Below, in pieces: positions 21,656-23,254 of a stretch of 64,000 bases of DNA. The notes under the pieces are model-generated. The model did not search any database and had not been told where the DNA came from. It saw only the letters and a program-made list of their open reading frames with translations. Each line of letters opens with the position of its first letter. Position 1 is the stretch's first letter. Both the position numbers and the translations under genes were made by a program. The DNA comes from Kiritimatiellia bacterium (lineage in GTDB: Bacteria; Verrucomicrobiota; Kiritimatiellia; RFP12; UBA1067), in contig JAQIBS010000244.1 in the NCBI GenBank assembly GCA_027858965.1, forward strand, positions 1 through 64,000, given 5' to 3'.

Positions 21656-21662
21656 GTTGCAC

Positions 21663-21692
21663 AAAAAGCCGGGCTCACTTTCGTAAACCCGG
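21663..21692 (-). terminator. Intrinsic terminator of left small RNA
   Basis: On the minus strand CCGGGTTTAC-GAAA-GTGAGCCCGG, a 10-bp stem with two G-U pairs and a GNRA tetraloop, followed by CTTTTT. Confidence 0.8.
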
Positions 21693-21864
21693 TTCAGTCT
21701 AACAGGAATGATCAATTATGTAGAATTGTCTTTATATGTTTACATATTAATCGTAATTTTATTTATACTTGTTGATCTGATCTTGTTGTTTTATGTTGTT
21801 GAAAAATGAAAATACTCTTATTTAGCTTTCCTGGTTGATAGTTGTTAATGTGTCACCTTTCATA
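21663..21864 (-). ncRNA. Predicted sigma-54-driven small RNA, left copy
   Basis: A transcript of about 200 nt is predicted from a sigma-54 promoter to an intrinsic terminator, with no credible ORF inside. It is paralogous to the unit immediately upstream: both have a CCAG(G)AAAG block, TATTTTCAT, a long A/C-rich single-stranded middle with CAACA repeats, a shared 18-nt stretch before the terminator (here ATCATTCCTGTTAGACTG) and a GNRA-capped terminator. The order of parts (structured 5' end, unstructured middle, terminator) fits a trans-acting regulatory RNA. The start is inferred as about 12 nt past the promoter's GC element. Confidence 0.6.
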
Positions 21865-21874
21865 AATTGAATAT

Positions 21875-21890
21875 TGCACCAATCGTGCCA
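21875..21890 (-). promoter_or_regulatory. Sigma-54 promoter, left small RNA
   Basis: Minus strand TGGCACG-ATTG-GTGCA. The GG and GC doublets are separated by exactly 10 bases, the spacing sigma-54 requires; one base (GTGCA for TTGCA) departs from consensus. Confidence 0.7.
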
Positions 21891-21935
21891 AACTTATTAT
21901 CAAGTTAAAGAAGAGGGACTGTGTTATTTGCGAGC

Positions 21936-21971
21936 AAAAAAATAACCGGGATCGCTTGCGCGATCCCGGTT
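21936..21971 (-). terminator. Intrinsic terminator of right small RNA
   Basis: Minus strand AACCGGGATCGC-GCAA-GCGATCCCGGTT, a perfect 12-bp stem with a GNRA loop, followed by A and seven Ts. Confidence 0.85.
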
Positions 21972-22135
21972 CTGTATAACAGGAGTGGTCTACATTTTAA
22001 TTAGTTTTTTAAGTATATCTTCATTAACTAATTTTATTTGTTGTATTGTGTTGTTTGTTTGTTTGTTGTGTTTGTTTGTGTTGTTATGAAAATCCTAATA
22101 TTCCTTTCTGGTCTTTATACCAGAATCAATCTCTG
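21936..22135 (-). ncRNA. Predicted sigma-54-driven small RNA, right copy
   Basis: A transcript of about 200 nt between a consensus sigma-54 promoter and an intrinsic terminator. It has a 5' hairpin TCTGGT-ataaag-ACCAGA, then GGATTTTCAT, an A/C-rich stretch (ACAAACAAACACAACAAAC) with almost no folding potential, the segment ACCACTCCTGTTATACAG, and the terminator. The CACTCCTG segment could pair with Shine-Dalgarno regions, and the ATTTTCAT segment with ATGAAAAT start regions (inference). Its neighbour downstream is a diverged duplicate with its own promoter and terminator, so each is an independent transcript. Confidence 0.65.
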
Positions 22136-22145
22136 CTATTTATAT

Positions 22146-22161
22146 TGCAATAGCCGTGCCA
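22146..22161 (-). promoter_or_regulatory. Sigma-54 promoter, right small RNA
   Basis: Minus strand TGGCACG-GCTA-TTGCA, an exact match to the sigma-54 consensus TGGCACG-N4-TTGCW, with GG and GC separated by 10 bases. Confidence 0.85.
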
Positions 22162-22253: not shown

Positions 22254-22296
22254 ATGTCGCACCAAGAGTCATTTTGTTGCAACGTTATGTCACACC
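22254..22296. promoter_or_regulatory. Candidate activator site upstream of the sigma-54 promoter
   Basis: Two direct repeats ATGTCGCACC and ATGTCACACC, 33 bp apart (about three helical turns), flank the palindrome GTTGCAAC and lie 95-135 bp upstream of the right sigma-54 promoter, the usual distance for an enhancer. Speculative. Confidence 0.3.
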
Positions 22297-22737: not shown

Positions 22738-22995
22738 TCACCCGTAATGTCCCCTGCACTGGGCGATCTCAGGGGAATCACCCTGCAGCCGATAAACAAC
22801 GCGGTTTTTATCATCAATACGCCGCGACCACCACCCACTTAGATCTCCCTTCAGAGGCTCCGGTTTGCCTATGCCTTCGTATGGAGAACGCTGAATATCC
22901 CGGACAATCTGATTGACACGCTTCAAGGTTTTCCTGTCCTGACTCTGCCAGTACACATAGTCCTCCCAAGCATCATCTGTCCACAGAAGGCTCAT
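22738..22995 (-). CDS. yoeB: YoeB-family mRNA endonuclease toxin
   Basis: 85 residues, the standard length. Motifs: LLWTDDAWEDYVYWQSQD, VNQIVRDIQRSPYEGIGKPE, PLKGDLSGWWSRRIDDKNRVVYRL, and the C-terminal catalytic CRGHYG, which retains the His-Tyr pair of YoeB. The ribosome-dependent mRNA cleavage is known for the family. The start codon follows the antitoxin stop by one base, giving a tightly coupled operon. Confidence 0.92.
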   Translation of the reverse strand: MSLLWTDDAWEDYVYWQSQDRKTLKRVNQIVRDIQRSPYEGIGKPEPLKGDLSGWWSRRIDDKNRVVYRLQGDSPEIAQCRGHYG

Positions 22996-22996
22996 A

Positions 22997-23254
22997 TCAA
23001 TCCTCGATCAGATCATGTTTTTTCAGTTTACCAGCCTCAGCCTGTGCTATAGATTCGCGCAAACGGTTCATATTCTTCTCGTTGAAAAAAGGATCCGCAA
23101 CCTCGAACGGAATCTTGCCCAATCTGAGCGACTGACGCACGAAAATGTTGAACGCAGTTGTCATATTCATCCCGAGTTCCTTGAAAAGAATCTCCGCGTT
23201 CTCCTTGATTTCACGGTCGAGCCGCATAGTAATATTAACAGTAGTATTTTTCAT
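22997..23254 (-). CDS. RelB/DinJ-family antitoxin
   Basis: 85 residues beginning with a ribbon-helix-helix (TTVNITMRLDREIKENAEIL, LGMNMTTAFNIFVRQSL), the RelB/DinJ signature, and a C-terminal toxin-binding tail. It pairs with a YoeB toxin rather than the more common YafQ or RelE; YefM would be the usual YoeB partner. A GAGGTGA ribosome-binding site lies close to the ATG. It probably represses its own promoter through the palindrome upstream. Confidence 0.88.
   Translation of the reverse strand: MKNTTVNITMRLDREIKENAEILFKELGMNMTTAFNIFVRQSLRLGKIPFEVADPFFNEKNMNRLRESIAQAEAGKLKKHDLIED

Follow-up and report, generated by a model that had tools for sequence, protein, structure and literature searches.

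Putative σ54-dependent small RNAs of Kiritimatiellota with a likely origin in the degP 3′ UTR

Introduction

Bacterial sRNAs that are relevant to the locus described here come from two directions: the 3′ ends of mRNAs and stand-alone genes. Among the former, CpxQ is under the control of the Cpx two-component system and relies on Hfq and RNase E, and we know of no σ54-driven daughter copies of this sRNA; glnA, the parent of GlnZ, is driven by σ54 and NtrC. Stand-alone sRNAs that are themselves σ54-driven include Qrr1–5 of Vibrio, which are also multi-copy, and GlmY/GlmZ of enterics, all of which depend on Hfq or RapZ. From the 3′ UTR of glnA, Enterobacteriaceae produce GlnZ, an Hfq- and RNase E-dependent sRNA that acts in nitrogen balance and carries a conserved seed within otherwise variable sequence (PMC9731577). 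CpxQ derives from the 3′ UTR of cpxP, which creates a mixed circuit where one mRNA supplies an envelope stress protein as well as an sRNA (PMC9438474). In the σE response, the envelope stress sRNAs MicA and RybB are expected to shut down the synthesis of outer-membrane proteins (PMC1804206).

Here, we describe a pair of predicted sRNAs in a Kiritimatiellia bacterium (GenBank assembly GCA_027858965.1), encoded in a stretch of 64,000 nucleotides (contig JAQIBS010000244.1, positions 1 to 64,000; hereafter the window). By analogy, these RNAs may work like the 3′ end-derived sRNAs CpxQ and GlnZ, in kind rather than as members of a sequence family (PMC9438474, PMC9731577). As with GlnZ, an mRNA 3′ end would provide an sRNA with a conserved candidate seed in variable surroundings; in contrast to GlnZ, the parent is degP, the search for Hfq was negative and there are stand-alone σ54 copies. 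The mixed circuit of CpxQ is a close parallel, yet no sequence relation between CpxQ and the window RNAs is seen. MicA and RybB share the protease-plus-RNA logic, including the repression of exported proteins that we predict here, but are σE-driven, exclusively stand-alone and Hfq-dependent, whereas Qrr and GlmY/GlmZ resemble the pair as σ54-driven stand-alone sRNAs and lack a link to degP. Rfam covariance models returned neither a Qrr nor a GlmY/GlmZ match at E ≤ 5; no family reached its gathering score in the window, and the RNA region gave nothing credible at E ≤ 5, in line with an earlier impression that the pair resembles no known sRNA family. Likewise, searches of an open-access library returned no degP 3′ UTR sRNA.

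Two predicted sRNAs in tandem

A preliminary description of the window had proposed two paralogous minus-strand units of about 200 nt, each beginning with a σ54 promoter and ending in a terminator with a GNRA loop, and all of these elements were found as described (Table 1). Paralogy holds even if the promoters are left out, with a local alignment score of 64 compared to a maximum of 40 in 2000 shuffles. The terminator stems had been said to diverge while keeping their pairing, and compensatory changes are indeed present at 8 of 13 consensus pairs among 23 copies. While the evidence supports reading the pair as σ54-driven small RNAs, its status as an isolated system did not survive: the pair belongs to a larger family, and the ancestral location of this family appears to be the 3′ UTR of a σ54-driven degP gene.

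Table 1. Features of the sRNA pair in the window, related stand-alone copies and the degP leader RNA. Positions are window coordinates unless a contig or locus is named.
Feature	Position	Strand	Basis
Candidate enhancer-binding protein site (UAS) of unit 1, TGTGACA ... GCGACA	22255..22294	(-)	6-mer over-representation
Unit 1 σ54 promoter, TGGCACGgctaTTGCA	22146..22161	(-)	Sequence; equivalents in G002 (syntenic position) and ahead of the remaining stand-alone copies
Unit 1 small RNA, ~200 nt	21937..22134	(-)	Predicted from promoter and terminator positions; expected start near 22134
Putative remnant of degP ORF end (..S-stop) and 3′ UTR start, TTTTCATAACAACACA	22077..22092	(-)	Identical to the 3′ end of degP in G000
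A/C-rich unstructured tract, unit 1	22032..22080	(-)	Sequence; congeneric degP 3′ UTRs have a similar tract
Unit 1 conserved core, GACCACTCCTGTTATACAG, anti-Shine-Dalgarno-like candidate seed	21972..21990	(-)	≤1 mismatch in 21/115 family genomes
Unit 1 intrinsic terminator, GCAA loop	21944..21971	(-)	Sequence; stem covariation
Unit 2 σ54 promoter, TGGCACGattgGTGCA	21875..21890	(-)	Sequence
Unit 2 small RNA, ~200 nt, paralogous to unit 1 but diverged	21662..21863	(-)	Predicted; expected start near 21863
Unit 2 core, GATCATTCCTGTTAGACTG, diverged	21695..21713	(-)	Covariance model, 52 bits (unit 2 among the model-building sequences)
Unit 2 intrinsic terminator, GAAA loop	21669..21692	(-)	Sequence
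Stand-alone copy of the window's genome (G000; besides units 1 and 2), promoter TTGGCACactgATTGC	C48		
Stand-alone copy of G001, promoter TTGGCACGgctaATGC	C63		
Stand-alone copy of G002, promoter TTGGCATGctgATTGC	C90		
degP leader RNA	L071:1687-1818		Equivalents in L006, L069, L070, L092-L096, L098, L099

How much weight the promoters can bear depends on their context. The 5.93-Mb genome contains three TGGCACGN5TGCA sequences, including the promoters of units 1 and 2. However, the more general TTGGCACN7GC is not enriched genome-wide, with 46 matches versus 42 in a reversed control and a density of about one per 258 kb and strand in the window's genome, which means that the motif alone proves nothing. 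The telling evidence is instead its recurrence before every stand-alone copy in the genus and before the parent gene: by our own arithmetic, the chance of a TTGGCACN7GC on the correct strand within about 200 nt upstream of each of the three stand-alone copies of the window's genome is of the order of 1e-9. With a rightly placed −24/−12 promoter and RpoN encoded in the genome (rpoN was found in all of the 11 genomes searched), the units can be classed as predicted σ54-dependent sRNAs, and we infer that they are transcribed. A YoeB/RelB-type toxin–antitoxin pair lies upstream of the sRNA pair on the minus strand (window positions 22738–23254).

A conserved core next to a terminator

When the pair was used as a BLAST query, the window's genome yielded a further copy on contig C194, and a pattern search added the one on C48. 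The 18-nt segment noted before the terminator in the preliminary description corresponds to a core that reads GACCACTCCTGTYATRCAG in nearly all copies. With up to one mismatch, the core GACCACTCCTGTNATNCAG is present in 21 of 115 genomes of the family, representing 9 of its 19 genera, and almost absent from the reversed control; the covariance-model search of relatives that had been suggested earlier recovered core and terminator in the same 21 genomes. When the model was run across 388 genomes of the phylum, its matches were confined to this family, save one weak and unrelated-looking match. The terminator adjoins the core in every copy. As the 19-nt core is nearly fixed, the remaining sequence variable and the terminator stems covarying, the arrangement shows the pattern that would be expected of a pairing seed.

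Copies are also seen behind genes other than degP. In genus g13 (G046), core and terminator additionally end the transcripts of a 478-aa ORF, a SUMF1-like ORF and a third ORF (L079, L081, L083), and a second CACTCC motif precedes the core in at least two of these copies. Genus g3 (G043, G044) has a second core–terminator copy, which lacks a σ54 promoter, behind a 470-aa ORF (L067/L059, L068/L040).

degP as the likely ancestral location

In nearly all core-bearing genomes, the core lies 20–100 nt behind the stop codon of one degP/htrA gene, assigned to DegP/HtrA by its Trypsin_2 and PDZ domains and located in the window's genome within bamA-ompH/skp-lpxD-degP-rmuC. Core and terminator are thus shared with the 3′ end of the degP mRNA in nine genera, as is typical of a 3′ end-derived sRNA. 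Among 22 core-less genomes that were tested, 21 have no match to this degP at E ≤ 1e-60; only G042 encodes it while lacking the core. Furthermore, a σ54 promoter of the form TTGGCAC-N7-GC precedes degP in 21 of 21 genes with readable upstream DNA, 16 of which were captured by the first pattern, followed by those of G019, G049, G124, G002 and G042; 19 of the genes are from core-bearing genomes in which the 5′ side was fetched together with the core, to which G002 and G042 were added.

The 5′ leader of degP is of interest in its own right. In at least 11 genomes it is a conserved structured RNA with an invariant AAACAGGUCCGU and three crossing helices that form a pseudoknot, of which helix b/b′ is followed by a T-run. 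In the alignment, 90.4% of cells are paired, compared to 30–49% when the helices are slid, and eight pairs have changed on both sides. Rfam gave no credible match at E ≤ 5 for the L071 copy of this leader, which is a candidate riboswitch-like or attenuator element.

Stand-alone copies and their origin

Within the window's genus, three species were sampled, and all of them carry one or more stand-alone copies with a σ54 promoter of their own. The G002 copy is syntenic with the window: as with the pair, genes for a phosphoglycerate mutase, a phosphodiesterase and a DHQS-like protein (PGM-PDE-DHQS) lie next to it. It retains promoter and terminator at the place of unit 1, so that unit 1 is at least as old as this split. 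Absence of these elements from close relatives, which had been named as grounds against the sRNA reading, is thus not observed in this congener. Only one unit is found there, with no counterpart of unit 2 between the core and the DHQS gene. Tandem doubling is seen in G000 alone; it is either specific to this genome or was lost in G002.

Traces of degP in these copies hint at where they came from. The degP reading frame of the genus ends in ..TTTCATAACAACACA.. (TAA being the stop), as seen in the degP genes of G001 and G002, so that this string covers the final codons together with the stop codon and the first nucleotides of the 3′ UTR. It is kept in two stand-alone copies, as TTTTCATAACAACACA in unit 1 and as TTTCATAACAACACA in the G001 copy; an A/C tract follows each, and neither has a degP reading frame upstream. 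When the pre-core sequence was aligned to the degP end, unit 1 (score 64) and the G001 copy beat all 2000 shuffles. The G002 copy did not rise above them (124 of 2000 were as good), because A/C-rich sequence aligns easily. The degP version is widespread and the stand-alone version confined to one genus, which suggests that copying proceeded outward from degP. Taken together, ancestry in the degP 3′ UTR and co-regulation of degP and the sRNAs are well supported at the level of sequence.

A putative common activator

Co-regulation is suggested by the region upstream of the promoters. In a set of 21 upstream regions, 16 from degP and five from stand-alone copies, TGTCGC/GCGACA is the most over-represented 6-mer, with 27 occurrences where 2.5 are expected and at most 8 were obtained in 500 simulations; the next most enriched are the variants TGTCAC/GTGACA. 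By sequence, upstream activator sites are recognizable across this 21-promoter set, with half-sites TGCGACAaagTGTCGCA for the C48 copy and TTGTCGCgctGCGCGACAA for G001:C63. Unit 2 has no TGTCGC/TGTCAC half-site of its own. Ahead of the promoter of the C48 copy (L066), the half-sites are arranged as a perfect inverted repeat, TGCGACA-aag-TGTCGCA. We read the shared half-sites as those of one putative enhancer-binding protein that would serve both degP and the sRNAs. ORF inspection of the 20-kb degP locus revealed no enhancer-binding protein gene.

Candidate seed and targets

The sequence common to nearly all copies, CAYUCCUGUYA, has the complement URACAGGARUG and contains CUCCU as in the anti-Shine-Dalgarno sequence of 16S rRNA; its simplest use would be pairing with the ribosome-binding sites of target mRNAs. 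A search of the window's genome for TRACAGGAGTG yielded five non-self matches, none of which is a clear ribosome-binding site. Across 21 genomes, ACAGGAGTG-N0-6-ATG occurs 61 times versus 22 in the reversed control, an excess that any Shine-Dalgarno-like pattern would show and to which the antisense of the RNAs themselves contributes. Complements of the seed at ribosome-binding site spacing recur at some signal peptide proteins and at a 181-aa membrane protein of genus g3, all of which are to be taken as leads only. The latter (G043, G044, G022; L166, L186, L170) has ACAGGAGTGTCTTTTATG at its start, with 9 nt complementary to the core, and is a possible target.

Hfq (PF17209) is absent from all 21 genomes, in which positive controls were found; any trans-acting sRNA would thus have to work through a different chaperone or without one. 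For the same reason, Hfq binding is an unlikely role for the A/C-rich tract, which may prevent the RNA from folding or be recognized by another protein.

Proposed mechanism and alternatives

We consider it likely that units 1 and 2 are trans-acting sRNAs of an envelope stress regulon governed by σ54 and an enhancer-binding protein, born from the degP 3′ UTR and equipped with an anti-Shine-Dalgarno-like seed. In the ancestral arrangement, the σ54 regulon would drive degP, encoding a periplasmic protease/chaperone, and the 3′ UTR of this gene, with its A/C-rich tract, near-invariant 19-nt core and strong terminator, would allow the mRNA to release an sRNA as well. In the window's genus, the degP 3′ end would have been copied elsewhere, with its own σ54 promoter and an upstream activator site of the same type, and in the window's genome the copy would then have doubled in tandem, followed by divergence of the second copy. 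The core most likely pairs with Shine-Dalgarno regions and would thereby repress translation of target mRNAs, which probably encode exported or outer-membrane proteins, while DegP would meanwhile clear the misfolded ones.

An alternative that we regard as unlikely is that the core is a cis-acting element of the degP 3′ UTR involved in mRNA stability, termination or autoregulation, and that the stand-alone copies are decoys or sponges titrating its binder. The degP 3′ UTR is the commonest place of the core, the terminator is always next to it, and a sponge copy under the same σ54 control would make sense. However, the core pairs no better than shuffled sequence with the 5′ region of degP in most genomes, which lends no support to degP's own leader as a partner, and cores end the transcripts of other genes in genus g13 (G046). 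The stand-alone promoters favour trans action as well, even though a sponge also acts in trans. It is very unlikely that the family is a dispersed terminator repeat, i.e. a mobile or selfish intergenic element landing behind genes without regulatory function. There are at most four copies per genome and some of them lie behind unrelated genes, but this low number, a 19-nt core kept across nine genera with compensating stems, and the presence of σ54 promoters and TGTCGC sites upstream of the stand-alone copies all argue otherwise.

That the units are leaders or short mRNAs for a small peptide seems highly improbable. In the G001 copy, a plausible ribosome-binding site precedes a 23-codon ORF, MKRFHNNTTHITNTTHITNTTHK, yet this ORF is absent from unit 1, and a conserved small ORF had to be rejected because none is common to the five stand-alone copies, in agreement with the early observation that the units lack a credible ORF; moreover, the A/C tract corresponds to the degP 3′ UTR. 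Hardly credible in our view is control of the neighbouring DHQS-like gene, whose 3′ end the pair faces, by antisense or convergent transcription. The PGM-PDE-DHQS synteny in G002 would fit, but the units terminate some 170 nt before they would reach the DHQS stop codon, the other stand-alone copies (C48, G001:C63) adjoin unrelated genes, and the DHQS loci of other named Kiritimatiellae are without an RNA copy, except for L016, which is G002 itself.

Implications

It has often been proposed that sRNA genes are born from the 3′ UTRs of mRNAs. Here, the steps in between can be seen side by side: nine genera have the copy in the degP 3′ UTR, one genus has stand-alone σ54 copies, two of which still hold the end of the degP reading frame, and one genome shows a tandem doubling. 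Our judgement is evenly divided on the most general form of the proposal, namely that Kiritimatiellota possess a σ54 envelope stress regulon in which one mRNA gives rise to both DegP and an anti-Shine-Dalgarno sRNA, and in which 3′ end copying has produced independent σ54-driven sRNA genes. The observations suggest a response to a misfolded envelope that is run via σ54 and has an RNA arm, in bacteria without recognizable Hfq. If true, it would parallel the σE and Cpx sRNA circuits while doing without Hfq, in a phylum, Kiritimatiellota, for which searches of an open-access library turned up no sRNA, and the promoter, half-site and core sequences make the regulon testable at once.
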